Shown here: piece after piece, positions 116 through 53,571 of the stretch
How the letters are laid out: each line of letters starts with the position of its first letter
Position numbering within the stretch: the first letter of the stretch is position 1
Source of the DNA: Prorocentrum cordatum
Taxonomy: Eukaryota; Sar; Dinophyceae; Prorocentrales; Prorocentraceae
Direction: 5' to 3'
DNA: 64,000 nt
Assembly: GCA_963575745.1 (NCBI GenBank)
Contig: CAUYUJ010019351.1
Location: 91,001-155,000, forward strand
Translations under genes and position numbers: made by a program
The notes under the pieces: generated by a model
The model's input: only the letters and a program-made list of their open reading frames with translations
What the model was told of the DNA's origin: nothing
Database searches by the model: none

Positions 116-279
116 GCAGGAACTTTCGAAGCTCTGGCCAGATTTCTTGGATTGGCGCTGGACGCATCTCTCTGGCGCGCGGACGCGCCAGGGGCGGGGC
201 CAGATGGGCCCAGCGCAGATCCAAAGAGCCCGCGCGGAACTCCGAACGCTATGTTTATGACATTGCTTTCTTCTTCGAA
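116..279. mobile_element. Introner-family TIR element, copy 1
   Basis: The two ends are inverted copies of each other. The inner arms read TTCTTGGATTGGCGCTGG on the left and the complement of CCAGCGCAGATCCAAAGA on the right. The right outer end (GCGCGGAACTCCGAACG, then CATTGC, then TTCGA) matches the ends of the introners inside the EF-hand/TPPP gene near 12.6-13.7 kb. A GGCGCGC core sits in the middle. It could be an intron of an unrecognised gene, but I could not prove flanking exons. Confidence 0.6.
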
Positions 280-2459: not shown

Positions 2460-4146
2460 CCCGAGCAACCCTTAAAATCTCCATGTTGCTCAAGGGGGCT
2501 TCCCAGGCTGCTGGAACGGCCGCCGAGGTCCAAGAGGCGTTCAAGAATGCGCACGCTTTCCCTTGCCCAGCTGCTTCGATACGAAGCTGATCGTTCTGAG
2601 CGTATGCATCAAGGCCATGATCAGAGCCCGAAGAACTTTTTTCATCGCAGCGCAGCAGAAGCGATCCGCTCGCGCGCTCTAGTAGCCCGGTGCGCGTGGC
2701 GTACTAATCAACCAGCAGCAAGAGAGGAAAGTAGGACGATGGCGGCCGCAAAAACCATGCGGGGGGAGGAGGGCACACACCGCGGAAAGACCTCCAGCAG
2801 GAGTTGCGCGAGCGGCCAGACTGCGCTGGGGCGACCTGGCAGTGGACGCAAAGCGGCATCGCGACCACACCCAGGGGCTGAAGTCAAGGCTGCAGGCGCA
2901 GCAAGCGTGGAGCAAGTCGAACCAATACGTCAGAGGGAAGGAGCGGCACGCGAATCCACAACGGCGAGAAGGGGAGCATGAAGGTGTCCGTGACGAAGCC
3001 GTAAGCGTCAGGCTTTGCTGTACAGGTACGGCGCCAGCAGGATGCGGACATTGCCTGAGCGTCAGTGGGGGGGCTGGGGCTGCGAACAGCGCGCTGCAAC
3101 AAGATGCTCCCGTACTGAGCCCACGGGCTGCTGAGCTGCTGAGCAACTGAACAGCCGGGGTGGTGGAGCGAAGCGAGAAGCCACCCGCCGACGCCAAAGA
3201 TCGCCCAGGCGGCGGGGCGCGGCAGGAGCACAGGAAGGGGGAGGAACCACCGACCCGGCCGGTGCACGCTTCACGGCCGGGCGGGGCAAGGGCGGTGGCC
3301 AGAAAACACAAAACATGACGGAAACCACCTCAGACTTCAGATCTGATCCATATTTTACTCGGTCCGCGTGCGCTTTAGCAACGGCGCCCGGCTACGAGTC
3401 TCGTGCACGTAAGCACTCTGTAAAACCATGAAGCTGTCTGCCTCAATCCACCAGAATGGGCAGCTTGCCTGAATGATACAAACCTGCTGCATACCGAACC
3501 TTATACGTAAAATGATGCCGACGTGAGTGCTGGAATGGAGCCGAAGATCTTCGCACACTTGAACCTATCTAGGCCTCCATTATCGGCCCCTTACGCCTTC
3601 ATGGGCCGTCGTGGCGCGTCTTGGGTCCCTTTGACGGCTCTCTTGGACAGTCTTGGCGCCTATTGGCTCTCTAGGGCTATCTTGGGCCCAAGTGGAAGCC
3701 CTCTGGAGCTGTCTTTGGGGCCTTCGGCCCTCTAAAGAAATCCTGAAACCACTTTAATAAGGAAACATGCGTAATCGTGTTGAAAAGCCAGCTGAAGCCT
3801 TGTACTTATAACTTTGGTTGCCTCGGGCTTCTCTTGGCGTCTCTCCTGGAGACTTTCCTGCGCTTGTTCAAGCCTCCTGGGACCTCTTCGACCGCCTGGC
3901 ATGCCTTTTGGGCCGTCTTGAAGGGACTCCTGAATCTCTCTTGGACTGTCTTGGTGGCCTGTTGGCGACCTCTTGAACCATCTTGGATTAGGAATCTCCC
4001 AAATGCAGAATAAACCAGAACACACGTGTGCATACCTTCCTGGTACTCGGGATCCCAAACGTCTTTGCATCTGCAATCCAGATGTTAATCACCTCGCGCT
4101 TCCCGTCGATCGATGGATCCACGCTCCTAAGACAAAGATCCTTAGG
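2460..4146. other. Gene-free stretch with weak minisatellite similarity
   Basis: No protein family is recognisable. From about 3,590 to 4,000 the sequence consists of short related phrases such as TCTTGGxxC and GGCCTCTTG, the complement of the CCCAAGAGG family that fills 26.7-28.1 kb and 55.6-56.5 kb. A short CTC run lies at 4,147-4,183. Confidence 0.5.
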
Positions 4147-4309
4147 TCCACCCCTCCTCCTTCTCCTCCTCCTCCTCCTCCTCCAGCCAGCTCGGCTCAG
4201 AGCAGATGTGGCCTGGCCGACCTCTTCCGCTCACGTTTTATCCCTACTTTATGTCAGGCGCATGTCGCTGAGGTGTTCCAGTCTCTGGTGGCTCGCTTGC
4301 GCAGTCATG

Positions 4310-5660
4310 TCTACATTTCTAGTGACGATTGGTTCATACAATCCTATGCAATCTGCCTCTCTGGACAGGCTGACTGACATTGCGGACCGCACGAACAACT
4401 TTGACGGCATTGTGCTGATCGGTACCCGTGCCAAGGCTGCTCGAGGCACATCTCTTCGGAAGAGGCAGGCGGGGAATCAGGTGGTGATTGAGGCAGGGTG
4501 GACAGCTCGTGAACTTACTAATATGCATTGTGGGGTGTCGATTATGTGGGGACCTCGAGTGAAAGCTGAGCATCTCGTTCGTACCGAGTGCGCGCCAACT
4601 ATCATTGGTGGTCGGCATCTCCTGTGTCGCGCACGCTCTGGCAGATTTGATGTTACGGTCATGTCTCTCCATTTCCCGCCGAAGCCGGACTCCTCTCGTG
4701 AGCGGGCTCGATGTCGGCGTACGGTTGATGAAATGATTGCGTGGCTTGCTCCTCGTCTGGCGTCTTTACCTCAACGTACTACGCCGCTGGTGTGTGCAGA
4801 CGTGACGTACCTTTTCCTGCACGCCCACTTCGGCACCGCCTGATCCCTGGGCTTCGCCCTCTCCTGGCCGCGTGAGGCCCCGCCATCTTCCGCCCTGTCT
4901 CTGCTAATTAAAGCTGTGCGCGTCCTGCTTAGCTTTCAGCGGAAGAGGTTCGCTCTCGCCCTGCAAATCAAAAAAATGTGCAGACGTGAATGATGGTATG
5001 GGGCTGGTTCAGAGGAATGGCTCCTGGATTTCTGACGACCCTATGGCTGTGGACCCACGCGTGGCGACGCGCGGGGTGTACGCAGGTGCTGCATGGTCTC
5101 GGCCTCTGGCTCTCGATGGGCTGCAGGCGGCGAACAGCTACAAGGGTTTCGGTCCTGCCTGCTATGGGCCTCATGGGGAGCCTGGCTGTGTAGATATTGT
5201 TGCGGCACCCACTGTGCTGGTCCAACACTGTCAGAATGCTGGTCCTCTTCATCGTCTCAGTCGGGAGCTGCAGCAGGTTCGACGGAAGGCCGTATCATAT
5301 CATTTGCTCATCCACATGGCTTTTGACTATGCCTTGGACTCCCAATCTGTGAGAGTATCTCCTGAGCGCCCGCGCTGGAATCTTGATGCACTCATGCTGG
5401 CACTTCGCAAAGGTGTTGGTCGCAAGGATCTCTTGGGCGCGGTGGGGGCTCGCATCTCGGGAGACTCAGAGCAGCGTGCGCGTTTGTTGGTCTTCTCTAC
5501 AGCTGACCAGGCATTTGACCATCTCAACGCCATGCTGATCCAAGAAAGGCAGCGTTTCTTTGGCACTGAGGCTTGTCAACGGCACTCTATGGCATCTGAA
5601 AGGAGGTGCCCTTCTCGATCGGCGTTGTCCACTTCGAATGGGTCTCGCGCGTGCGAATGA
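4310..5660 (+). pseudogene. LINE A endonuclease domain, interrupted
   Basis: Reads as an exonuclease-endonuclease-phosphatase type domain. It opens with a strand ending in SYNP, followed by a TR pair in the position of the catalytic Glu region. After this come SIMWGP, a VMSLHFPP strand and PLVCADVNDG, where GDxN is usual. The last motif is split by the insertion at 4,806-4,976. Removing the insertion plus one target copy restores the frame from CADV straight into NDGMG. Downstream, YKGFGPACYGPHGEPGCVD and HMAFDYAL continue the domain. The frame breaks near 5,580-5,660. Family assignment rests on motif order and the following RT. Confidence 0.7.
4793..4989. mobile_element. SINE-like retroposon with 13-bp target duplication
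   Basis: TGTGCAGACGTGA occurs at 4,793-4,805 and again at 4,977-4,989. Between them are 171 bp of unrelated sequence ending in AAATCAAAAAAA. The host site is the LINE A endonuclease frame, which becomes continuous when one target copy and the insert are removed. A poly(A) tail plus a 13-bp duplication is the signature of target-primed reverse transcription. A GGTTCG near the 3' end recalls a pol III B box, but a convincing A box is not visible, so the parent RNA is unknown. Confidence 0.85.
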
Positions 5661-6340
5661 TGAGGCTCATATTGTGCAGCAACTTGTTGAGCTGACTCGA
5701 GAGAACGGCAAGCGTTGGCGGCGGGAGGCTCGGCAGCAGCAGCAGCGTCAGGTTGAGGAAGTTCATGACTTGTGGCGAGAGCGGCGAATTGCCGACGCAG
5801 CTCGACTTTGTTGGCGGGTCGGTGGCACTCGCTTCGGACCCGAACGGCGGGGTTACCTAGCTGTTCGAGGGTTGTCGCTCGTGCATCCGAGCTTGTTGCT
5901 GATTTTTCTCGCCCTGGAGCTGAGGGGTGAATGGGGGCCACGCAGATCGCTAACTGGCAGGAGTGGAAGGATTTTCTTCTGTCTGGGGCGTCGCCGCACG
6001 TCGAGCCCACCTACGCTGATCGTGAAGCTGCTAGTCTTCATGGTTTAAATATCAGTTGAGCCCTTCTCAAACTGGGAAGCGACGAGCTGGGCCTTCATGG
6101 GCCCCGCCTCTGGAACAGTGGTGGTTGGTTTGGCCCCCGCTCAAGAACTGTAAAGTGAAGGTGGTGGGGCTGGGATCTTCTCGGGAGGGACTGCGTCTTC
6201 CTGAATTTTAGATATACTTCTTTGGGAGTCTGGTTAAAATCCGAAGTTCGGGATGGGCCCTAATCCGGTGGCGCTGTAGCGAAGGGCTCCTCTTCCACGT
6301 CCTGACGGAAAAAACGCGGTGGGTCCACCACCTGGACCCG

Positions 6341-6931
6341 ATGGGGAACCTTTTCATGCATCAACGGGGGCCAGGGCTGTTTGGTGACTGCGATTATGGT
6401 CTCGTGCTGTACCATCGTCGGGAGGAGGCCCAGCTTGTGCAGACTACAGGTGGGTATCACTTGTGGCGGTCGGGGCTGTCGCGCGTGACCAACGCCCGCG
6501 ATTTAGCGAACGCGTTCAGTTCTAGCAGCTGGGGGTCTATGCGATCGGCAATTTCTTGCATGTTCTGGCCAGGGTCCTTGGGCGTCGGGGAGCAGCGTTA
6601 TCGATGGGCTGTCATTCAGCTTCGGGGTTATGATGAGCAGGTTACTCTACGTCCTAGCAATGGTGGGCTTATGGGGGATGGATATGCCGTTCGCTCTTTT
6701 GTGCGCGCTTTCGAGCCGACTGTGGAGTCTGGCGAGCGGCAGGACCTGTCCCTGACAAAGTATGCTGATGATATTACTAAGAAGTTGGTGGGAGGGATGT
6801 TTACGACCCTACGAAAACTTATTGAGCTAGGCCGTAGTCGCAACGCTGATCTAGATAAATCTCTTCTGCTGGATGGATATAAGCAGAACCTTAGTAAACA
6901 TGACAGCGCCTGGACATATTCCTGGACCTGA
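6341..6931 (+). pseudogene. LINE A reverse transcriptase fragment
   Basis: Conserved RT features can be read in order. VTNARDLANAF fits motif A (Asp, then Asn-Ala-Phe), SNGGLMGDGYAV fits motif B, and LTKYADDITKKL carries the YADD catalytic box of motif C. The usual upstream finger and palm blocks are split into other frames, and the frame closes soon after motif C, so this is a remnant. Confidence 0.75.
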
Positions 6932-6982
6932 CCCCGGACCTGAGCTAGTCACTAGTGTGATCGATATCGGGAAACGTGCACA

Positions 6983-7320
6983 ATGTGTGACAGTGATGGC
7001 AATGTCTGTGGAGCTATCTTACCTGATCGACGTGCCGTGCATACACATATTATAGCTAGACATGGGTATCCGTCTTTCTTGAGTGTCTTGAGTGTCTCTA
7101 ACCAGCGCTGCGTGTGCCTTACCACGTTCGCCTCTCGTGCCACATGTCGACGCCATCTTCGTGATTCATTAGAGCGAGGTTTTGCAGTGATGTAACGGTT
7201 CGTCATCTCCTGCCTCTGAATGTACTCTTATCGTATCAGTGCCCTCTATGTGTGTTCTATGGCCTCAGCTTTGAGGCTTTGCAGGATCATTTGACAAGGC
7301 ATCTCGATCCTTGCCCTGAG
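6983..7320 (+). pseudogene. LINE A C-terminal zinc-finger region
   Basis: Three finger-like patterns follow the RT: Cys...His-x3-His in CGAILPDRRAVHTHIIARH, Cys-x-Cys...His in CVCLTTFASRATCRRHL, and Cys-x2-Cys...His-x3-His around CPLCVFYGL and HLTRHL. They are split between two frames. C-terminal zinc fingers are known from several LINE clades and probably bind the element RNA or target DNA. Confidence 0.6.
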
Positions 7321-7345
7321 CCCCGACCGCCCTGGCTTAGAGACC

Positions 7346-8137
7346 ATGGTGCACACGACCATGGACAACCTGCCCGCTTGGATGCTCGAGGTCCCAACGC
7401 AACCGAGCGACGACGTCGGAGAGCCTCTCGCGAAGAAGGCAGCCCGGCATGCCGAGGCGGCCAAGCAGCAGGCCGAGGGAGGCGGGGACGTTCTGAAACA
7501 GCTCGTGATCATCCTCACGAAGCTCATGCTCCTCGTCCTCTTCCTCCTCCTCCTCCTCGTCCTCCTCCTCCTCCTCCCCTCACGCTCTCATCAGCGCCGC
7601 CGAATTGAGGGACAGCTGCGGCGTCGTTCTTTTTTCACGTTCCTGATGCCATCGGAGTCGGTCGCGGCCAAGGCCGCCAAGGCCGCAGGCGTCGAGTATC
7701 ACAACGGTGCCCAGGAGCTGAAGGAGAGCAGCGGCGACGCGTCTTCTCTCGGGCCCCCTTGTCTGCAGGTGCGGGTGGCACTGGTGCAAGCTGCAGGTCA
7801 GGATCCGTTGTGCCCAGAGAAATGCAAACATTGCTTTGAGATGTTTTGGAAGGAGGTGGTGGTGGTGAAGGAGCTTCTAGAGTTGGCGGACGAGGTCCGC
7901 GTGTGCAGGATCAGGGTCACGCGGGAGCAGGAGAACAAATCGGAGGAATATCGGCTGACGTTCGCTATCGACTCGATGGTTCCCGAGCTCGAGCGTTGCC
8001 TCGTGAAGTATCTGAAGGCGGCGGGAGGAGAGCGGAAGGTGGGAGCAGCCCCTCGGGGGGTTCTCGAGCGGGACGCGGCGAAGCTGCTGGATCGCATCAC
8101 GCGCTGTGCTCAGAGCAGCAGCACAGTGTCGAAGTGA
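7346..8137 (+). CDS. Retroelement-associated ORF with CTC expansion
   Basis: A 263-codon frame directly after LINE A, probably a second element ORF. The N-terminal part (MDNLPAWMLEVPTQPSDD) is acidic and Lys/Ala-rich. The C-terminal part is charged and helical, with a CPEKCKHC cluster and a long amphipathic stretch. Residues about 56-85 are translated from a CTC microsatellite (7,528-7,577) and give a poly-Leu run that looks inserted. The following frame reads more naturally one base out of register. I recognise no family, and it may be a pseudogene. Confidence 0.5.
   Translation: MVHTTMDNLPAWMLEVPTQPSDDVGEPLAKKAARHAEAAKQQAEGGGDVLKQLVIILTKLMLLVLFLLLLLVLLLLLPSRSHQRRRIEGQLRRRSFFTFLMPSESVAAKAAKAAGVEYHNGAQELKESSGDASSLGPPCLQVRVALVQAAGQDPLCPEKCKHCFEMFWKEVVVVKELLELADEVRVCRIRVTREQENKSEEYRLTFAIDSMVPELERCLVKYLKAAGGERKVGAAPRGVLERDAAKLLDRITRCAQSSSTVSK
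7528..7577. repeat. CTC microsatellite inside an element ORF
   Basis: About 50 bp of CTC/CCT within the 7,346-8,137 frame, adding a hydrophobic run unlike the charged residues around it. Confidence 0.85.
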
Positions 8138-11940: not shown

Positions 11941-13771
11941 CTAGTCCGAGGTCTTGGTGGCGTGGGAGCCAGTGTACGTGCTCTTATCGTCGTGGAACCG
12001 GACGTTGTCCGCCCGCGTGGCCGTCAGCACAGGCCTGCCGTTCTGGATGATCTTCATGATCAGGTCGCCGTAGTCGACGCCTGTCTTCTCCGCCGTTGCC
12101 CAGATGGCGTCCTCGAACTGCTTTCTGTCGATCCGCCTCTGGCCCTTCTCGCAGGCCTTGGCGAACACGAGGTCCGCGTCGTTGCTGGAGAAGCCCTTGT
12201 CGAGGAGCTGGCAGTCCTTACAGAGCTTCACGAAGCTCCGGTTGTCCATCGTCTGCTGCCCGCTCCCACAGAATATCAAGAACACGTCGTGGAGAGACTT
12301 CGGATTGCGGTCTGCGCTGGGGGCGAAGACCGCCTCTGGCCGCGAAGGCGACTTTGAGGGCCTGCGACGCTCCGCGATCTCCGTGGGAAGGCCCAGCTTA
12401 GCAAGGCCAGCATCTATGCTGTCCACGTGGCCATGCGCATGCGAGCCCGTGTAAGTCGTCTTATCGTCGTGCAGGCGCACGTGGTCCGACTTCGTCCCCT
12501 TCACGATCGGCGGGCCAGCGATCAAGACTGCCTCTCGAGTGCTGCTCTCGGACACGCCCTTCTTCGCAGCGACCTGCCGGATGGCCTCGCCGAACTGCGC
12601 GGCGTTGATCCGCCGCTTGCCCTTCTCCACCACCTTGGCAAATATCACAAGGGAAACGAACAATGACCTAAACGTAAGAACTCGGAGGTCCGCGCGGATT
12701 TCTCGGATCGGCGCTGGACCCTCCTCCCTGGCGCGCGAAGCGCGCCAGGGGCGGCGCCGGAAGCGCCGCCAGGGGGGTCCAGTGCGGATCCGAGCAATCC
12801 GCGCGGACGTGCGAGTTTTCATGTTTCTGGCATGCTTCGCTCCCCTGGATCAGGTCGACGTCGGTGCTCCCGAGCTTTTTGTCCATCAGGCCGCAGTCCT
12901 TGTTGGGCGCCCGAGTTATCCGGGGTAACTCGGGTCCGGGGTAACTCGGGTTTGGATTCCCGAAAAAGGAACCCGAGTTAGCCCTGACCCGAGTTACCCC
13001 TGATGATTCGGGGCTCTGACCTTGCACAGCTTGAGGAAGCACCTCCCGTCCATGTCCTCGTGCCCCTCGCCGCAGAAGCTGAGGAACGTGCTCAGGACTC
13101 CTGGGTCGGCGCTCGGGTCGGCGCTCGGCTGCAAGAGCTGGCGGGCCTTGGACTCCTCGCTGCCGCCGCCGCTGCCCTGGACCCACTGCGAGAACTCCTC
13201 GTACGTGACCTTCCCGTCGTGGTTCCTGTCCATGTGCTCGAATATGGCCGTGATGTCGGCATCGCGGAATCTGCCGAGCGACTTCAGAATACTGCTCAGC
13301 TCCTCTCGAGGAGCAGCGAATGACACAAACACGAACTCTCGGAGGTCTGCACTGACTTCTTGGATCGGCGCTGGACCCCCCTGCCCTGGCGCGCGGGGCG
13401 CGCCAGGGGCGGCGCCGGAGGCGCCGCCAGGGGGGGGTCCAGCGTACGGCAGGTTCGTGTCGTGCCGACCCCAGCGTTGGTTTTTGACACCGCGGGGATC
13501 GTTCAACCTTGAACGATCGGCCGCTGCCGCAACGCCCGATCGTTCAACATCGATCGATTCTGGGTCGCCGGCGGCGTTCAACCTTGAACGTCCGCGCTGG
13601 GGTCGCCGCTGGTCGACACGACGCAAACCTACCGTAGATCGACGAAATCCGCGCGGACCGTCGAATCTATACGTTTACGTCATTGCTTGTTTCTCGATCC
13701 TCGCTGCTCAGGGAGCCCGTCTTGCTCGCGTACCTCTCGAAGACCTCCCTGATCGCCGAGGCGTCCCCCAT
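11941..13771 (-). CDS. EF-hand protein with two p25-alpha/TPPP-like domains (4 exons)
   Basis: Exons are 13,771-13,700, 13,302-13,021, 12,898-12,851 and 12,645-11,941, giving 368 residues and stopping at TAG. An EF-hand has a canonical loop at residues 49-60 (Asp49, Asn51, Asp53, Gly54, Glu60). Two p25-alpha/TPPP-like repeats follow, from about 92 and 225, each with LCKDC, a K/EKGxRRI segment and HDDKxTYTGSH (first copy at 193-203). TPPP proteins bind and bundle tubulin, and relatives occur in flagellate protists, so a calcium-responsive cytoskeletal role is inferred. The ATG at 13,771 gives the frame that enters the EF-hand. Intron 1 is GA-AG and intron 2 GT-AG. Intron 3 has no visible AG acceptor, but precise removal restores DLIFAK, matching DLVFAK in the second repeat. 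If intron 3 is retained, the frame ends soon after the first half-domain. Confidence 0.85.
12646..12850 (-). mobile_element. Introner in intron 3 of the EF-hand/TPPP gene
   Basis: A 205-bp intron whose whole body is a TIR element. On the plus strand the left arm holds GGTCCGCGCGGATTTCTCGG and GATCGGCGCTGGACCC. The right arm is their imperfect complement. GCGCGCC and GCGCCGCC palindromes lie in the middle. The outer ends are also inverted (minus strand CCAGGGGAGCGAAGC against CAAGGGAAACGAAC). TGAT is directly repeated at both edges. Confidence 0.85.
12899..13020 (-). other. Intron 2 of the EF-hand/TPPP gene with hairpin
   Basis: A 122-bp GT-AG intron (donor AAG|GTCAGA, acceptor AACAAG|GAC). 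It contains several copies of GGGTAACTCGGGT and the complement ACCCGAGTTACCCC around a TTTTTCGGG centre, so it is also an inverted-repeat element but unrelated to the introners. AAG|G is repeated at both edges. Confidence 0.8.
13303..13699 (-). mobile_element. Introner in intron 1 of the EF-hand/TPPP gene
   Basis: A 397-bp GA-AG intron. Subtracting the nested 192-bp element (13,445-13,636) leaves 205 bp, exactly the length of intron 3. It has the same inner arms (TTCTTGGATCGGCGCTGGAC) and outer arms (minus strand TCGAGAAACAAGCAATGAC against TCGAGGAGCAGCGAATGAC). GAGGA is repeated at both edges. The left copy provides the GA donor and the right copy the AG acceptor. Confidence 0.85.
13445..13636. 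mobile_element. 192-bp TA-flanked TIR element, copy 1 (nested in an introner)
   Basis: The left end TACGGCAGGTTCGTGTCGTG and right end CACGACGCAAACCTACCGTA are inverted copies with a 26-bp arm ending in GACC. Internal palindromes of TTCAACCTTGAACG occur twice. It begins and ends with TA, as expected for Tc1/mariner-type target choice. The copy at 38,948-39,139 has exactly the same length. Confidence 0.9.
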
Positions 13772-13918: not shown

Positions 13919-14080
13919 AGGGGCCCTGGGACACACAAATAAATACACACAAATAAAAATATTCCCCATATTTTGCCGTATTTTCTGGGTTTTTGTCTTC
14001 CCCCCCAATTCCCATATTTTCCCATATTTTCTGGGGAGTCGACGATTAATTGTGTCTGTGTGTTTTTTCCTCTCCTGAGT
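13919..14080. repeat. Dispersed repeat R1, copy 1
   Basis: About 160 bp. It starts GGGGCCCTGGGACACACAAA, contains CATATTTT units and GGTTTTTGTCTTCCCCCCC, and ends AATTGTGTCTGTGTGTTTT. Other copies are at 19,104-19,225, 37,491-37,652 and 38,461-38,620. The AT-rich core stands out from the GC-rich surroundings. Confidence 0.85.
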
Positions 14081-15450
14081 GATGACTCTGCGTCGGCCGC
14101 CCCGCCGCCGGCTTCGGGCCCGGGCGCGCGCGGGGCGCGCGCTTTTTTCCCTCATTCGCCCTTCCCCCCCCCCTTGAATTTCAAAGAAAGGGGAAGACGA
14201 CCGCAACCACTCGGAAGGCAGCAACCCTTCTGGAATCCCTCGCTCGACGAAAGAAGCTCGATGTCAATCAACGCTTGTTGTCCCCGCCGAGCCCAAGCCC
14301 CCAATGCCGTGAGCTCTTCGCAACGCGGACCCCCGTGGTCTGGACCCTCTCCCGGGGGCCGGTTTTTCGGCCTCGAGCCACTTCTTGATGGCTCCAGGTC
14401 TAGCGAAGGCTGCCCAAAGCCGGGAACTGCTCAAACACCTCCCGTCGTGATTGTTTCGCAACGAAAGCATGTTAGAGCCCGGGGGTCGAACATCCATCCC
14501 TGGACCTGTTCCGGGTAGCGCTCTGGCCAGAATTTCAAGGCCGATCCGGCCGTGGCGACGAGAAGCCTCCTGGAGGCCCCCGAAATGAAGGAAACAACCA
14601 AAGTTCGACCCTCGAACCTCGAGGGGCTCTGGGTCCATGCTGGTTTTCGGGTCAAAACTCGAGCCTCCAGCGGCTGCTCGGGACGATCCAGGCCCCCCTG
14701 GAAAACCCTCGACGAGGCGCAGCGGCTGGAGGTCCCCCCGAGGCTGGAAAGCCGCCGAGGGCCCACGAAACTGCCCGAAACCTCGAATCTCGAATTCCTC
14801 TCGTCCCCCCTCCTCGCGTCCCCCTCCTCTCGTCCCCTCCTCTATACCTTCATACGTTACATACTCCGCACTTTCAGTTTTCCCTTGGGCAGCGCATGTC
14901 CACATGATGTATCTCAGCGATTGTCCCCACTCTGTGCACACTTGCGCTTGTAGCCCGGCGGGGACAGACCAGAGGACGTATCGACCCTGTAGTGTTGCCA
15001 GACGAAACACTGAAATCTGTACCGCATGACTTTGCCCGAGGAACAAAAAAATCGTCCCCCGCGTGGGCGCGCCCTGTGAATAGGAGGAGTCGGCTTGCGC
15101 AACAAGGTCGGCCCGCCCGCCGGCTGGCGCTCGCGGGCGGCGCGACGCCGGCGCCGACTGCGAGGCCGACTGGGCCTGGAGGATTCCTGAGGGTCCCGGG
15201 AAGGGGCAGCGGGCCGCGATGGAATCGGCGCGGTCGTTGGCGCCCCCCCCGCGCCCGCCCCCCCCCCCTGCAAGCCGACGCCGGCAACCTGTGAAGGGGG
15301 GGGGGGGCGGCTCCGCGCGGTCCTGGGCGGGGCGGGCCTCCGGGCCCCTGCCGGCGAGGAGTGGGCGACGGGGGGCCGACGCTGGCCCGCTGCCCCCCCC
15401 CCCCCTGAGCGGGTCCACCCCGAGCGCTGCCCCGCAGGGGCGGGGGCGCA
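14081..15450. other. Gene-free stretch of dispersed repeats
   Basis: Includes a repeat at about 14,675-14,795 (GGGACGATCCAGGC, GAGGCTGGAAAGCCGCCGAG, CCCGAAACCTCGAA) with relatives at 33,745-33,895 and 62,655-62,770. A block near 14,540-14,600 (CCGTGGCGACGAGAA) recurs at 25,095-25,150. Long frames have no recognisable similarity. Confidence 0.55.
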
Positions 15451-15851: not shown

Positions 15852-16056
15852 GATGGAGGAGCAAAGAACGGCACAGCCATCATGGTTCTGCGCTCCGCGC
15901 GGATCTCTCGGATCTGCGCCGGACTCTCCTCCCTGGCGCGCTCCGCGCGCCAGGGGTGGCGCCGGAGGCGCCGCCAGGGGGGGCCCTGGCGCCGAACCGA
16001 GACACCCGCGCGGAGCTAGGAAAGCCTGTGCTTGTGCCGTGCGCCACACGCTCGGG
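15852..16056. mobile_element. Introner-family TIR element, copy
   Basis: Inner arms CTCCGCGCGGATCTCTCGG and the complement of GACACCCGCGCGGAG flank the GGCGCGC/GGCGCCGCC core typical of the family. On the minus strand the 3' end reads GTTCTTTGCTCC, matching GTTCGTTGCTCC at the 3' end of the intron ending at 35,407. It may be an intron of an unrecognised minus-strand gene. Ends are approximate. Confidence 0.65.
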
Positions 16057-25226: not shown

Positions 25227-28200
25227 TCAGTACACGTAGCCGCGCCGCATCCGGATGGGCTCGGGGGAGATGTTGAAACTGCGGAGGTAGAACGACACCA
25301 GCGCTTGCTCCTCGCGGTAAACCTCCTCCTCCCGCATGGTGGTGCTGGCGAGCCAGGGCCCGGTGTGCGTGGCGTGCATGGAATCGATCAGGGCCATGCG
25401 CGGGGCCCTGCCTAGAAGAAGAGACAACTGCACAAGCATAAGCTGTCGGAGCTCAGCGCGGATTTCTTGGATCGGCGCCGGGCCCCCGACGGCGCCTCTG
25501 GCGCAGCCCCTGGCGCGCAGAGACAGCGCCGACCCAAGAAACCCGAACGGCCCTCCCAAACGTTCTGCTCTCGCCGCTTTTGATTCTTCGACTGCCGATT
25601 TTGGCTCGGAACGCGCCGGGGAAGAGCTCGTCGTAGCCCCACGAGCGCGACAACCGCGGGCGCACCATGCGGCAGAGCACCTCGAAAGCCTCCCGCGTGA
25701 ACACGGGCGCCTCTGCGGGGAAGCCGGAAAAGGCACGAATGGGCAATTCCGTGCAAGTGGACGCGGCCAGGACTGGGAAAACTGGCAACGGCTGAGTCGA
25801 GCCCGAATCAATTGGGATGAGGTTGCCCGGGCTGGAAGAACAAAAAAGGGAACTGGCCAGGGCTGTAAGGAGTGGAAGGGCTGGCCCCTGTTACTTTTTA
25901 CATCCAGCTTCCCATGTGTGGCTGCAGAGTAGCGGTGGCGCCGATCAGTGCCCATGGGGGAGGAACAGAAGGCCTCCCTGCCCAACTGTTCTTACCCCCC
26001 GCCAACCAATCGAAGTCTGCCTCCAAGACGCTCCCGCCGATAGGGGAGGTCGCATTCTAAACCAAATCTCGGCCGCAAGAACCCGATCGGGTCGTCGATG
26101 CCTACCGGCATCCCACAGCTTTCGCCCATCCCCAACTTCTGGAGAGCCTCCCGGCACAACTAAGCACGGACAACATGACACCAACTGCAGACGCTCGTGC
26201 TGCCGCTGACATCGTGAGACGCGGCAAGCAGCAACCTTACAACGCGAACGCGTCATCCTGGGCAAACCATCCCTGTGCCTGCGGGTACGGGCCGGAGGGC
26301 CGACGTGTCCCGGGATGCGCGGCCGCAGCCACCCCTGCCGGGAGCTGCAGCTCGGCCCAGCTCAGGGACGGCTCGTTCCGAGCGAGGGGCAACGGCGCTG
26401 GTGCCCCTCGTGATGGGCCCATTTTCCACCACCGCTGCCATAGGTAGCACGGGGGAGAGGGGAGGATGAGGAGGGCCTCCTTCTCCTCCTCCTTCTCCCT
26501 CTCCTCCTGCTCCTCCTCCCCTCCTCCTACCTATGGTAGTGGTGGTGGAAAATCAGCCCACCGCCTCTGAAATTTTCGGGCGGGGCCGCACGCGCTGAAA
26601 CTGATCATGTGCAACGAGCCCCGGTGGCAACCTCCAGCCCCGACGGGCGAACAGCCTCATGGCTTCCAGGGCCCTGGGGCGAGGAGGCCTCCAGCAGAAT
26701 AACAAACAACCGCAAGAGGCCCCCAAGACAATAGACGACAGGTCCGCGATGCCACAAGATCGCTCCAAGACGTCCAAGATGGCGCCTAGACGCCCCGAGA
26801 GGCCTCCAAGAACCCTCCCAAGAGAGTCTCCAGGAGCAAAAATTGATGATTTTCCGTTGGTTTTCTCATGATTTTGGCTTCTCCGCCTCATCGGCTTCCC
26901 GGCGCTTTATAACGGCCCAAGAGGCCCCCAAGATCCTCCCAACACGGCCCAAGAAGACTCCAAGAGGGCCCCCCAACGGCTCCAGCGGGCTCCAAGATAG
27001 CCCCAGAGGCCTCCAAGATGGCCCAAGAGGCCCCCACGACATCCCCAAGAGCAGGCCCAGACGGGGGACCCGAACGGAAATTTCGAGCTCTCGGCCCCGA
27101 GAGGTCCCCAGGATGCCCCAAGACGCTCCCAAGAAGCTCCCAAGAGGTCCCAAGAGGTCCCAAGAGGCCGCCAAGAGGCCCCCAAGAGGCCCCAGGAGGT
27201 CCCGGAAATATCGCCAAGAGGCCCACGACAGGCGTCCAAAGACATTCACAAGCCTCTCAAAGAGGCGCGCCCAGACGCCCCAAGTGGCCTCCAATAGCCC
27301 TCCCAAGAGAGCCCCAAGAAGCACGATTCATTGCTTTTCTATACGTTTTGGCCAGAATTCTAAGTTTCCACCTTTCCGGCTTTCCGACGCTCCAAGACAG
27401 TCCGAGACGCCCCCAAGACCGCCCCATGAGGCCGCCAGCGGCTCCCAAGAGGGCCCCAAGACGGCCCAAGAGGGCTCCAAGACACCCAAGACGCCTCCAA
27501 GACGGCCCAAGAGAGCCCCAAGAACGCCTCCAGAGAAGCTCCAGGGGCGGAACACGAAACATCATTTCGAACCTTCGGGGCTAAGCACCCCCCAGGAAGC
27601 CCCAAGAACAGCTCAAGTTCCCCCCACACCAACCAAGAGCTGCCTGTGCACTGCCTCCATAAGCTCACGACTGCGTTCCGACGAGACCCCACAACGCATC
27701 TCTAAGAAGTCTCACCCACAACCCATGCACAATGACGGGATGGGCCGAACGCACCTGAGCTCCATAATGCAAAACTGCAAGCAGCCATCGAGAGGCGTTC
27801 TTCTCCTCCTCGGGGCAGCCCTTGGGGGTCCCCGAGCGAAAAGTCCCCCTGGCAAGTCCTGGCAAGTCCCGGCAAGTCCCGGGCAAGTCCCAGGCAAGTC
27901 TGGGTCAGAGATGCCAGACCAGGCAATTTTTCGACACCCCTCATGAGGATCGTGGCCTCCGAGGGGACGGCGCCATCGACTCTCCCCCCCTCCTGCCCCA
28001 AGAAGCGGCCAACAGGCTCCCGAGGAGCCAAGCGGCGCCCAAGAGGCCCCCCAAGAGGCCGCAAAGAGGCCCCCAAGAGGCCCCCAAGAGCGCTCCGTGG
28101 GGGCCGGCGGAATGAGCGAAGCGATTAAATAACAAACAACCGCATGATCAGAAAACGTCGGGGGTCCGCGCGGAGCTCCGAGGATTGAATGCCTATGCCG

Positions 28201-37289: not shown

Positions 37290-37465
37290 GAGAGATGGCG
37301 TGAGGATCAACTCTCGGAGGCCCCCGAGCAGACTTCCGGCATCGGCGCTCGGCACCCCTCCCCAGCACGCGGCGCGCGCCCGAGGTCGGCGCTGCCATGG
37401 GGGTGGCCGAGCGCCGATCCAGGAGATCCGCGCGGACCTCCGCGCCCCGCGCCGTGCCCCCTCCT
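37290..37465. mobile_element. Introner-family TIR element, copy
   Basis: Left AACTCTCGGAGG, CATCGGCGCTCGG and right CCGAGCGCCGATCCAGGAG, ATCCGCGCGGACCTCCG are inverted copies. On the minus strand it ends CTCCGAGAGTTGATCC-TCTCCCAG, a possible acceptor. It lies 5' of the known exons of the DUF707-like gene and may mark another intron. Confidence 0.65.
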
Positions 37466-38669: not shown

Positions 38670-38947
38670 CTTCGTTCCCTCGAGGGCGATGCTCAGATCC
38701 TCGTGTCACTCCCCCCCCTCGATCCCTCGATCCTTCGATCCGTCGATGCCTCGATCCTCAGGTCCTCGTGTCACTCCCCTGCCCCTCGATCCCTCGATCC
38801 CTCGATCCCTCGAGGGCTATCCCCGCCCCCCCTCCCCGGGGCAGGCCGATTCCCCTCAGAGCGTCGATCCCTCGAGGACGATCGCTTCCAGTTTGTGTCA
38901 GGTCCTTCGACCCCTCGAGGGCGACGACCTTTCTGGAACAACCCAGG
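38670..38947. repeat. TCGATCCC minisatellite and tandem unit
   Basis: CCTCGATCC octamers (38,700-38,830) lead into a larger unit (TCGAGGACGATCGCTTCC, TTTGTGTCAGGTCCTTCGAC, CCCTCGAGGGCGACGACC). Its second copy is the one split by the copia element (39,190-39,208 plus 47,604-47,700). Confidence 0.8.
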
Positions 38948-39139
38948 TACGGCAAGTTCGTGTCGTGCTGACCTCGGCGCTGGTTTCTGACACCGCGGGG
39001 ATCGCTCAACCTTGAACGATCGGCCGCTTCCGAAACGTCAGATCGTTCAACATCGACCGCTTATGGGTCGCTGGCGACGTTCAGCGTCGAACGCCCGCGG
39101 CGGAGTCGCCGCCGGTCGACACGACGCGAACCTACCGTA
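38948..39139. mobile_element. 192-bp TA-flanked TIR element, copy 2
   Basis: Same ends, length and internal TTCAACCTTGAACG palindromes as 13,445-13,636. The tandem copy of its host sequence at 47,640-47,680 lacks it: CCCAGAGACCCCCAGTGGA replaces CCCAGG-TA...TA-CCTCCAGTGGA. This is an unoccupied site and confirms TA at both edges. Confidence 0.9.
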
Positions 39140-49649: not shown

Positions 49650-50303
49650 GATGGCGGCGGGCGAGGGCGGTATACCTCGCCTTGGTGAAGGGGAGGACCT
49701 GGCTGCCCCAGTCACCCATTCGCAGCCCTTTGAGCGTCTGGTATATAGTGAACAGGAAATCGAAAAAAACAACATAATGGACAATCTACCCCCGTCGGGG
49801 AGGGGGAGCATCAAAAGACACACCTTGGCCTGAGCAGAGAGATCGGCGAACCCAGAGGGGAGAGCGGGAAGGCAGGAGGCGACAGGGGCGAGGAGGGGAC
49901 AGTGAAGCAGGTGCAACACTCCGTCACCCTGGGGGGCACGGCACAGAGGGCACTCTTGGGTGGGATCTCTGAAACGACGAGTCGTGCACCAACTATTGCA
50001 CAGGGTTTTGAGGAGAGAAGAAGAGACAGAGCAGGGGAAGGCGCGGGCGGCGGCGACGAAGGAGAGGACCACGAAGTTGGCGTGGCACTCCTGGGCGGAT
50101 GCGAACCACCATCGCAGCCGAGGGAGCAGAAGCTCGCGGACATTGCCAGGAACCCTGAGCTGAACCTCTACCTTCGCCTGGAGCCCTCTCCCCCCCAAAG
50201 CGGGGACCCGCGGGATGGCCACCACAACGTCAAAGTTGGCCATCAGGGAACAGGAGAGAGAGAGGAGAGCCAGAGGGGGTGGCCCTTCCAGGCAGGGCAG
50301 CAT
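49650..50303 (-). pseudogene. LINE B C-terminal segment, out of frame
   Basis: Continues the RT protein after a frameshift near 50,245-50,300. RWWFASAQECHANFV and RFRDPTQECPLCRAPQGDG, HLLHCPLLAP give a Cys-x2-Cys...His-x4-Cys knuckle typical of the C-termini of many LINEs. The end runs into repeat sequence. Confidence 0.7.
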
Positions 50304-53300
50304 TCGTCATCATCCACAAGGCTCAGGAGCAGATCGCGGGCCCTGGAAAACGCCGACGAATGAACTGCACACCGATATCGAGCGGCTCGACTGGCAACCT
50401 CAAGATCCCGACTCTCGGCGGGGAAGTCGAGCCCACGCAAGTTCTGGAGGAGCCCGAACGGGATGGCGTTCCGAGGCCCTGCAGCGAGAGCCTGAAGTCC
50501 TTCACGAAGGGAAGACAGGACCGTTGCCGAGGGGGCGTGGAATTGACCAACATACATAAGCCGAGGGAAAGCACGAGAATTGTGCCGAGCAGTCGATTTC
50601 ATGAGCCCAAGACCGAGAGACTTGATATCGCGAACAGCACTGACATATCTTCCAATCGGGCGGGGCCAGCTTTTCGCAGAACTCTCGTACCCAAGCATGA
50701 GCCCAAGATGCCTCCCAGTCCTCTGAATGCTGAAGACACCTCTTTTAATGCCACGATTCTTGAGCTCCCGCTCCAAATTCTCAGAGGAAAAGCCAAGCGG
50801 GAAGACGGGGGCGGTTTTCTGGGGGTTCAGGTGGAGCCCAAACGCAGGTCCAGCTATCTTCATCACCTCAAGGACAATCACGAGGGCATCGAATACGTTC
50901 GAACAGGCGAGCCCCAGGTCATCAGCAAAGCCACCAGGGATCCCAAGATCACGATGCACACGAGAGTCGAGATACCAAGGGATCGGGTCGTAGGTGAGAG
51001 CGAAGAGACTTCCGCTGAGGGGGCGCCCCTGCTTGACCCCGCGCCGACTCCGACATCCGTGTTCACGGCGTCCGCGGAAGCTGACGACAACCCGGCAGGA
51101 AGAATAGAGCGCCTGCGCTGCACGGATGTACCATTCTGGAATGCCCATCGCTGTGAGCGTGAAGAAGATAGCCGAGTGGCGGAGGGAGGGGAACGCTGCT
51201 CGAATATCTAGAAGAATCAGTCCAGCCTGGGCTTCAGCTCGTTGGGCAATCCAGTGTATCAGCTTGGCCTCCAAATCTATGACATTCTCGGTTCCCAGGC
51301 GCCCAGGGGCGAAACCCCGCTGAAAGTAGACGCAGGTCTCTTCGCAAACTTGGGGCAGGGAACGGTTGAGGGCACGGCTGGTAATCTTGTTAGAGGTGTT
51401 GCTCAAGGTGATGGGGCGAGTGTCCTCGCGAGGCCTAACAGCGCGGCGGGCATCTTCGGGGGCGCCACCTTTGGCCAGGTAAACTTGGTAGGCCCAGTTG
51501 AACTCTGGATGGACCTCTCCTGTGGCCAGGATATGCAAGTACAAAGCATATAACGCAGAAAGAGCCCCAACGCCACCCCCCTTCCAGGCAGCGTAGGGGA
51601 GCCCGTCTGGGCCAGGAGCGGAGTCCCCGACCCGTGCTAGTGCTTCTTGGAACTCCTCAGGTTCCAGGGTCCAGAAGATCGAGGGCGGGGTGGGCGGGAT
51701 CCAGTGGACGAACTCCACGCGCTTGTCCTCAGACCCCTCGCTCCACCCATGCACTTGGCCCCAGTGAGCGGGAAGCTCGCGGAAGGCGCTCAGAGGGTCG
51801 AGCAGCTCCTTGCCGCTCGGGTGGACAACCCCCTCGAGGCCAACGCGCTTTCTCCTTTTGCCCCAAGCCGAGAGGTATCCAAGAAGCTTGGCGGTGCTCG
51901 ACTCCTTCCTGACCTGTGGGAGGCTGGGCCCCTGGATTTCCTCCACGCGAGCAGCAATGCATTGCCTCTGAAGGTCTGCGAGATCATCGTGATTGCTTCG
52001 AACGTCGGTCCATGCCCCCTCAGACGGATCCAGAAATCGAGCCAGGGTGGGGTAAGCAGTGCAAGCCCGACAAAGTATCTCTTGTCCAAGTCCGAGCCGG
52101 AAGCTACTCGAACCCACGGCCCTCGTGCCCCGCAGCGCTGCCAGAGCCCAGGGTAGAAACTCGGGAGGCGAGCTGGCCGTGCGCATCTCCAGTCTTCGCA
52201 TGAGCCTCCGAGCAGATTCCTTGAGAACACAACTGCAATCTTCAACCGCCTGAACAGGGTGGTCGGAGATCGGGCCCGCCTCCAGAACAACCTCAGAGAC
52301 CATGGAGGGGAATTCTTTGCGCCGGCAAACCCAACGAGGAACGCGAAACGAAGATGCTGCCGACGTATGCCCCGAAATCGAAGCAACCGCAGGTACATGA
52401 TCAGACGCTTCCCCGAGCCCTGCAGGACCCCGAAGAACACGGCTAGCAGGATGAAGGTCGATCAAGTCTGCAGGCGGAACGTTGAAGTAAATCCTGTCGA
52501 TTCTTCCCAATGATACCACTTGCTTAGCCTCCCCAACGCCGAGCTCGACCCGACGCGTGAAGGGGGGCTGCGTGACCTCGACCAGATCTTTAAAGAGGCT
52601 GCTGAAGAACCCGGGGATCGGGGCGAAGGCGAAACTGACGGAGCTGTCGACAAGATGCCTACCCTCTCCTTCCGCTGGAAATTTGAAGTCCCCACAGAGA
52701 ATACCCGAGCAACGATCCGCAGACCAGAGAGCGCGCCGGAGACAGCGAAGAGAAGCGTATACGTCCTGCCTGCCCAGGGCGGGGTCCAGATGGAAGTTGA
52801 TGATTTGCGCGCAGTCGCGATCGCTGGCCAGCCAGAGCGTCTGCGCCAGCCCACCGATAAGAGAGGAGTGATGTCGCCGAGGGATTAGAGCAGCAAGGGC
52901 GGGGTGAAGAAAGATAGCAGCACCGCCAGCGTGGGGATTGCCGGAGAAACTGCCGGCACTTATGCGACCGTGGACCTCGGAAGTGAAGAGAATCAAGTCA
53001 GCCATTGTGCCACGAACCTCTTGGATACAGACAATGTCATGAACTTGACTGAGCTGGGTAAGTCGAGCAATTTGTCGCCGCGCGTTTTCCGTGGGATCGA
53101 TGGCGCCAAACAGGGGGCGAGCATTCCAGCTGACGATTGAGAGATGGGACTGCGGGCGGCGCGGATGGAGGGTGGGGCCAGGGAATACATCATGGTCTGA
53201 AGAGGAACTGCTCGTCGATGAGGAAGTAGAGGCCGAAGAGGGGGAGAGACTGGAGCAGCGGCTGAGGGGCCGCGGCCGAGAGCGAGGCCTAGAGGCGTCA

Positions 53301-53308
53301 TCCCGCAT
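50243..53308 (-). CDS. LINE B endonuclease-reverse transcriptase ORF
   Basis: A 1,021-codon uninterrupted frame. A Ser-rich leader (1-50) precedes an exonuclease-endonuclease-phosphatase domain (about 55-312) with Asn62 (SWNAR), Glu97 (QEVRG), GDFKF at 206-210 where GDxN is usual, a RIDRIYF strand at 269-275 and SDH at 302-304. The RT domain (about 550-870) has APGPDGLPYAAWK from 564, TRPITLSNTSNK from 630, Asp701 of LLDIRAAFPSL, RGVKQGRPLSGSLF from 756 and FADD at 794-797. It would nick target DNA and copy its own RNA by target-primed reverse transcription. The Asn-to-Lys change in GDFKF may weaken the nuclease. The lost C-terminal frame suggests it is not autonomous, but such a long clean frame implies recent insertion. 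Confidence 0.9.
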   Translation of the reverse strand: MRDDASRPRSRPRPLSRCSSLSPSSASTSSSTSSSSSDHDVFPGPTLHPRRPQSHLSIVSWNARPLFGAIDPTENARRQIARLTQLSQVHDIVCIQEVRGTMADLILFTSEVHGRISAGSFSGNPHAGGAAIFLHPALAALIPRRHHSSLIGGLAQTLWLASDRDCAQIINFHLDPALGRQDVYASLRCLRRALWSADRCSGILCGDFKFPAEGEGRHLVDSSVSFAFAPIPGFFSSLFKDLVEVTQPPFTRRVELGVGEAKQVVSLGRIDRIYFNVPPADLIDLHPASRVLRGPAGLGEASDHVPAVASISGHTSAASSFRVPRWVCRRKEFPSMVSEVVLEAGPISDHPVQAVEDCSCVLKESARRLMRRLEMRTASSPPEFLPWALAALRGTRAVGSSSFRLGLGQEILCRACTAYPTLARFLDPSEGAWTDVRSNHDDLADLQRQCIAARVEEIQGPSLPQVRKESSTAKLLGYLSAWGKRRKRVGLEGVVHPSGKELLDPLSAFRELPAHWGQVHGWSEGSEDKRVEFVHWIPPTPPSIFWTLEPEEFQEALARVGDSAPGPDGLPYAAWKGGGVGALSALYALYLHILATGEVHPEFNWAYQVYLAKGGAPEDARRAVRPREDTRPITLSNTSNKITSRALNRSLPQVCEETCVYFQRGFAPGRLGTENVIDLEAKLIHWIAQRAEAQAGLILLDIRAAFPSLRHSAIFFTLTAMGIPEWYIRAAQALYSSCRVVVSFRGRREHGCRSRRGVKQGRPLSGSLFALTYDPIPWYLDSRVHRDLGIPGGFADDLGLACSNVFDALVIVLEVMKIAGPAFGLHLNPQKTAPVFPLGFSSENLERELKNRGIKRGVFSIQRTGRHLGLMLGYESSAKSWPRPIGRYVSAVRDIKSLGLGLMKSTARHNSRAFPRLMYVGQFHAPSATVLSSLREGLQALAAGPRNAIPFGLLQNLRGLDFPAESRDLEVASRAARYRCAVHSSAFSRARDLLLSLVDDDECCPAWKGHPLWLSSLSPVP

Positions 53309-53571
53309 CTCATGTCGGCCCCCCCCGCGACAAGCCGCGGTAGTCGCCCTCCCGCCGGTGACGAGGGGAATAGAACATGCAGAGGGTGCCGAGCACGAGG
53401 CCCCCGCAGCCGCCGTCGGACTCGCTATCGTACTGATGGCACCCGCAGCCGACGGCGCCTCAGACCCCGCCGAGGAGGCGCAGGAGCTGGCGGCCCTCGA
53501 GGATCGCCGAGATGGCGCACTCGCATGTCAACTTTGGATTGTGTCGACCCAGCCCTGGGCCAGCTCGCGGT

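Follow-up and report, generated by a model that had tools for sequence, protein, structure and literature searches.

The 64,000-nucleotide stretch of Prorocentrum cordatum DNA that we analysed (the window) carries, on its minus strand at positions 11941..13771, a TPPP-like gene whose spliced frame encodes an EF-hand and two p25-alpha domains. The spliced product reached 219.6 bits in Pfam against a cut-off of 22.6 for PF05517, in two stretches, which places it in the p25-alpha family. Four exons (13771-13700, 13302-13021, 12898-12853 and 12647-11941) are separated by three introns of 397, 122 and 205 nt, numbered here 5' to 3' on the minus strand. All three junctions are present in P0001, a protein from a public assembly (368 aa, longest contig 1,451 bases) that is 98% identical over its length to the product of the gene and reads SSEELSS at intron 1, LCKDCG at intron 2 and DLIFAK at intron 3. 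The lengths of 397 and 205 nt that a first-pass annotation, made from the letters of the window, had assigned to introns 1 and 3 were thus recovered from the spliced frame and from the P0001 junctions. Six residues differ between P0001 and the gene, every one of them in exon 4. The contigs behind P0001 and behind P0126, a transporter protein discussed below, may be RNA or DNA and may come from strains with or without the inserts, and the support for splicing is at the level of protein. In the P. cordatum genome that was searched (4,128,499,153 bases, 4.13 Gb, in 21,875 contigs), the gene occupies a single place, and identity falls to 46-48% in the protein matches that follow. In one of these 46-48% TPPP paralogs (C15517), about 830 bases separate the first matched exon from a copy, further upstream, of the core of the transposon family described below (L012, 547-671). 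An AT-rich repeat of the tattttctggg type was seen by eye upstream of the start of the TPPP-like gene, at about 13930-14170.

The splice donors of P. cordatum are GT in 24.7%, GC in 51.4% and GA in 23.8% of cases, and 79.7% of acceptors read AGG (PMC10666404, in excerpt). Because a repeat at the edges of an intron leaves the exact cut position undefined, we listed for each copy every dinucleotide pair possible over the repeat. Intron 2 (12899..13020, minus strand), which forms a hairpin between CAAG repeats, has a single fitting pair, GT...AG/G. Intron 1 (13303..13699, minus strand) also has one fitting pair among all the positions possible within its repeat, GA...AG/G, and this pair lies within a duplicated pentamer, GAGGA, found upstream at 13698..13702 and downstream at 13301..13305 on the minus strand. 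Both introns therefore have splice sites of the dinoflagellate type. TCGAGA had also been considered as the duplication of intron 1 and was ruled out by the P0001 junction, the TCGA part belonging to the ends of the inserted element. Intron 3 (12648..12852, minus strand) could be cut at five equivalent positions, and none of them offers a GT/GC/GA-AG pair. Its edges are marked by TGAT repeats at 12852-12849 and 12647-12644, and the cut would fall at 12852-12648 or at an equivalent position within TGAT. The target duplication reads TGATC in the upstream copy (12848..12852, minus strand) and, by eye, TGATA in the downstream copy (12643..12647, minus strand); the fifth base differs and both encode isoleucine. 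We think that this intron, whose want of a splice-site pair of the dinoflagellate type the first-pass annotation had overlooked, is the most interesting feature of the locus.

Introns 1 and 3 are filled by copies of one miniature inverted-repeat transposable element (MITE). The copy in intron 3 (12648..12847, 200 nt) is 90.5% identical to the family consensus, a divergence of 9.5%, and the copy in intron 1 (13306..13697) is 81.9% identical, a divergence of 18.1%; the latter measures 392 nt with a second element nested in it and 202 nt without. As the first-pass annotation had reported, the nested element is 192 nt long when both TA copies are counted (13445..13636); it consists of 188 bp between two TA and has imperfect terminal inverted repeats (TIRs) that agree at 20/24 positions. 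Its net addition is 190 nt, and intron 1 minus the nested MITE thus measures 207 nt, not the 205 nt that had been claimed. Over 192 nt the nested MITE was 98.4-100% identical to seven other fetched copies (0-1.6% diverged; two at 100%), and TA was present at both ends in all 6 copies inspected as well as in the window copy, as expected of a TA duplication. A genome scan gave 4,064 first-look candidates, of which 40 were scored, and the 39 besides the element itself were 94-100% identical. An older copy, 87% identical, lies in the window at 38943..39139. From its TA target, we take the nested MITE to be of Tc1/mariner type; it resembles MITEs of that type in having TA at both ends, TIRs, a short non-coding body and many near-identical copies. 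The near identity of its copies, set against the 18.1% divergence of its host copy, indicates that it arrived long after the host element, and the order of events first read from the window, a different transposon landing later in an existing intron, is confirmed. The nesting itself, which had been presented as a special feature, recurs: a second family copy, L067 (1500-1876, 376 bp), also contains by eye a TA-flanked insert with inverted ends, so the arrangement is not unique to the TPPP-like gene. Other family copies longer than 199 bp were L065 (1248-1527, 279 bp) and L090 (452 bp).

We then characterized the host family across the genome. The element is about 199 bp long and palindromic over almost its whole length, and its ends, TAGGGGAACGAA...TTCGTTCCCCTA, form TIRs. 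The family alignment comprised intron 3 and 29 copies selected by similarity (28 distinct sites); together they are the top 30 of 3,330 candidates and hence a non-random sample. A 27-mer of the element end, searched with at most 2 mismatches, gave 4,090 + 3,941 = 8,031 matches in the genome, and the reversed control gave 0. Since an intact element has two ends, this corresponds very roughly to 4,000-8,000 family copies. A direct repeat of exactly 5 bp flanks 22 of the 51 copies with both ends located, a count in which the window copy (L016) is included and L022 and L023 are the same site, against 0.57 expected when flanks were re-paired randomly. The duplication and frame counts exclude copies whose second end was undetectable (9/30 of the pattern-listed copies L046-L075, and 5/20 of the placed loci L076-L095); in 4/15 of the remaining L076-L095, the ends were directly bordered by a repeat of 4 bp or more. 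The excess of 5-bp repeats identifies the family as a MITE with a 5-bp target duplication, and TIRs, a duplication of fixed length, small size and high copy number are all present. Moreover, the family alignment and the duplications at both sites uphold the earlier proposal that two insertions of one mobile family produced two introns in a single coding region. ATC is contained in most of the duplications of intron 3 and of L017, L018, L024 and L031, four of the 22 that lie in genes, often as an in-frame isoleucine codon, and ATC or GAT occurs in 7 of the 22 exact 5-bp duplications; the family transposon may prefer ATC-type targets. In the flanks of L022 and L094, the inverted repeat was seen by eye to extend outward, with no direct repeat. 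Rfam gave nothing at the gathering score, and a search of viral contigs gave one 19-base match (L001), which we put down to chance.

The first-pass annotation had described matching inner and outer inverted repeats in introns 1 and 3, and their mutual alignment, their membership in one genome-wide family and their folding all agree with this. The predicted fold of intron 3 had an energy of -143.2 kcal/mol compared to a shuffle mean of -82.4 (z -14.0, 0/200 shuffles as good), and that of intron 1 had -236.2 compared to -166.9 (z -11.8, 0/100 as good). The inserts of two transporter genes described below, C16540 and C16132, gave z values of -18.7 and -6.2. All four of the family introns folded (4/4) were thus far more stable than shuffles, and the predicted stem closes at or beside the repeats. 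Intron 2, on whose structure the first-pass annotation had not remarked, also gave a strong hairpin (z -6.9, 0/200 shuffles as good); this hairpin, between its CAAG repeats, means that inverted repeats are present in all three introns of the TPPP-like gene. We looked for selection on the stem in the 7 gene-internal copies and detected none: arms paired at 0.845 compared to 0.825 for re-paired arms, with 123/2000 shuffles as good, and selection for compensating stem changes is accordingly not supported. The 45 other copies paired at 0.917 compared to 0.908, above all 2000 shuffles. The hairpin may be merely inherited from the element.

Few of the sampled copies lie within exons. Among the similarity-selected copies, 4 of the 28 distinct sites looked gene-internal (taken from the best 30 of 3,330 candidates, by a screen that is partly weak), and of the pattern-listed copies with both ends, 0/36 had a convincing coding frame over the joined site in a weak screen based on frame length and codon-position GC; Pfam was applied, among the pattern-listed copies, to L051 alone. 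Seven gene-internal members are counted in all, namely introns 1 and 3, C16540, C16132, L018, L024 and L031. The existence of further gene-internal copies, which had been set beforehand as a condition for the first reading of this locus, is therefore established. The designation of the family as an introner stands as far as several members lie within genes; it does not stand in the sense of a dedicated introner with members mainly inside genes, given the 4/28 and 0/36 of the partly weak screen, and we regard the family as a MITE that sometimes becomes an intron. L035, whose PPR repeat lies to just one side of the junction, was not counted as gene-internal, nor were L044 and L051. L018 and L031 are the weakest of the counted cases: L018 has no Pfam domain match and was called coding by eye, on its repeated VPxG motif, and L031 has a deaminase domain on one side of the junction. 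Moreover, L018, L024 and L031 were picked for their frame over the joined site, so that this open frame is no independent evidence.

In six of these seven copies (intron 3, C16540, C16132, L018, L024 and L031) no GT/GC/GA-AG pair exists within the duplication. The strongest case is C16540 (L017), an MFS transporter gene with one family copy, in which a 205-nt insert is flanked by the duplication AATCC and offers no usable dinucleotides. The protein P0126 (515 aa, contig of 1,557 bases) is 100% identical to the joined C16540 frame over 390/390 residues, and a contig of 1,557 bases that encodes 515 aa leaves no room for a further 205 nt of insert. No insert-free copy of C16540 was found among 30 scored genome candidates. 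C16132, a transporter paralog, carries an independent insertion of the same family 25 nt further on, with the duplication TACAT; this copy is 25% diverged and has thus been tolerated for long. A cut at its pentamer yields GLPDYMAYVIVTLEYAA, parallel to P0126, and restores the frame that P0126 shows. P0127, the annotated protein of this paralog, agrees instead in all of the 54 letters compared with the product of a GC-AG cut within the element, and this product is out of frame. At L024, the annotated protein P0111 is without VPSHELVIWQVCQHPTVAGE, and P0112, P0113, P0114 and P0116 have counterparts to most of this stretch. Together, C16540 with P0126, C16132 with P0127 and L024 with P0111 suggest, at the level of sequence comparison, that copies whose duplication contains no AG are still cut at the pentamer. 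An AT-rich relative of the tattttctggg-type repeat forms a GT-AG-type interruption in C16132 (L097), and relatives were also seen by eye in the joined flanks of L055 and L061.

These copies have to be weighed against ordinary splicing. Intron 3 might be spliced at conventional dinucleotides close to the repeat with a change of few residues: there is an in-frame pair made up of a GA donor lying 14 nt inside and an AG/G lying 14 nt downstream, and its use would replace FAK by QGS at unchanged length. GA donors with AG/G are used in dinoflagellates (PMC10666404, in excerpt), sites of this type were chosen in the annotation of L024 and C16132, and the P. cordatum annotation drew on transcripts (same source), so that P0127 could reflect a genuine GC-AG cut. 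However, DLIFA[KR] is found in all of P0001-P0003, and F139 is invariant in an alignment of 12 sequences. At C16540, the close-by in-frame GA-AG/G cut would give AILGDSG, whereas P0126 reads AIQDSG, and the annotated cut at C16132 leads to a frameshift. We thus consider ordinary splicing of intron 3 unlikely, and the cut at the pentamer itself remains our preferred reading of this intron.

It could also be argued that intron 3 and the exon copies like it disrupt their genes in the strain that was sequenced, that P0001 and P0126 derive from insert-free alleles and that no splicing takes place at pentamers. The protein-level support for splicing is compatible with such a scenario, since the contigs of P0001 and P0126 may be RNA or DNA, as are the identity of P0001 to the window gene, which is below 100%, and the behaviour of most family copies as an ordinary MITE. 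The scenario agrees poorly with the 100% match of P0126 over 390 residues and with the state of the host genes, in which frames are intact despite a divergence of 5-25% between the gene-internal copies and the consensus. If the whole of this divergence is taken as age, which gives an upper bound, 2.8-15.9 stops should have accumulated for six of the copies, and none was seen in the matched frames. We consider this scenario improbable.

In principle, the elements could be cut from DNA and not from RNA, in the manner of the internal eliminated sequences (IESs) of ciliates. IES excision is likewise precise and leaves one repeat copy, and for Blepharisma IESs that derive from MITEs have been described (PMC9942856, in excerpt). 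In the assembly, however, the TPPP-like gene and the transporter genes are present solely in the insert-bearing form. Dinoflagellates are not known to separate germline and somatic nuclei, which also speaks against excision from DNA, and we consider such excision extremely improbable.

We therefore favour, with fair but far from full confidence, the reading that introns 1 and 3, two independent insertions of one palindromic MITE, are removed from RNA at the duplicated pentamers under the guidance of hairpin and repeat. The sequences themselves show the family with its ends and duplication, the two insertions, the nesting and its relative order, hairpins as predictions and the restoration of the frame, whereas removal at the level of RNA and its guidance by the hairpin are inferred. 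A non-autonomous TIR transposon of about 199 bp with a 5-bp duplication inserted twice into exons of the TPPP-like gene. Its TIRs would fold the pre-mRNA into one long hairpin and so bring both copies of the duplicated pentamer side by side, and excision would join the exons between the pentamer copies, restoring the frame that existed before insertion. Where the pentamer contains AG/G followed by T, C or A, as in intron 1 (GAG/GA), the result would be an ordinary dinoflagellate GA-AG intron. Where it contains no AG, as in intron 3 (TGATC) and in the copies of other genes, the element would still be removed at the pentamer. As the AG-free copies are apparently removed there, guidance by hairpin and repeat, and not by splice dinucleotides, is what we infer. 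The later jump of the TA-specific MITE into intron 1 lengthened the predicted hairpin and left the excision sites untouched.

Several elements of this reading have counterparts elsewhere. The introners of Amoebophrya are defined by an inverted repeat of 8-20 nt and a direct repeat of 3-5 nt at the intron ends (Farhat et al. 2021; PMC7789003, in excerpt), and introns 1 and 3 have such repeats at both boundaries. As far as that excerpt goes, the two systems are alike in their hairpin-forming introns with inverted repeats, in short direct repeats over both boundaries, in the absence of fixed splice dinucleotides and in their transposon-like spread; the predicted hairpins, which close at the repeats, fit the model proposed there. 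In contrast to Amoebophrya, the P. cordatum introns belong to a single defined family of high copy number, its ends known and its duplication exactly 5 bp long; the host is a core dinoflagellate, for which GT/GC/GA-AG introns have been described; and the support for splicing comes from protein and not from RNA-seq. Among dinoflagellates, Polarella glacialis is reported to have 12,253 recent introner introns and 15 families that number at least 100 introns each (review PMC11453091, in excerpt, which cites Roy et al. 2023), and the introns of P. cordatum are reported to be enriched in inverted-repeat elements (PMC10666404, in excerpt). Our introns share with these a derivation from transposons and, with those of P. 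cordatum, inverted repeats at the intron ends. They differ from known dinoflagellate introners in that family copies often lie outside exons and in that AG-free duplications appear to be tolerated. The nonconventional introns of euglenids similarly have variable borders, an RNA structure that joins the ends and direct repeats at a recent insertion (PMC4770533, in excerpt), whereas here the introns consist of a long palindrome from a still recognizable MITE family and the RNA structure is a predicted one. Dinoflagellate introners are thus already known. In the open-licence literature that we searched, we found no account of this family or of nesting in a dinoflagellate introner, and none of pentamer-bounded introns without GT/GC/GA-AG in Prorocentrum.

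A wider and more tentative reading, to which we give somewhat less than even chances, is that P. cordatum may combine ordinary GT/GC/GA-AG splicing with a removal of hairpin MITEs at the duplicated pentamer that is independent of splice sites. If this is true, exon insertions of the family, and perhaps of other families, would be nearly harmless from the outset, and in gene models forced to GT/GC/GA-AG such copies would turn up as frameshifts or deletions, or the gene would be missing. A central question of intron gain is how an exon insertion of a transposon without splice sites of its own can become an intron at once. With a high-copy family, an AG-containing and an AG-free insertion in the same gene, known ends and a fixed duplication, the sufficiency of a hairpin and a direct repeat becomes testable. 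If they suffice, the removal route described in Amoebophrya and euglenids would also be active in a free-living dinoflagellate, and part of the P. cordatum gene catalogue would need to be re-modelled.

Elsewhere in the window, four diverged copies of the family lie at 117..210, 15894..16014, 25431..25556 and 37309..37442. The first-pass annotation had pointed to these copies; they exist, and their standing as introns was not borne out, as none of 10 ORFs near them contained a Pfam domain above the cut-off. Among 20 window ORFs outside the TPPP-like gene that were compared with Pfam, reverse transcriptase was the sole domain to reach its cut-off. It is encoded on the minus strand at 50246-53341 by an ORF of 1,032 aa from stop to stop, with 73.6 bits against a cut-off of 29.6, together with an endonuclease match below threshold.
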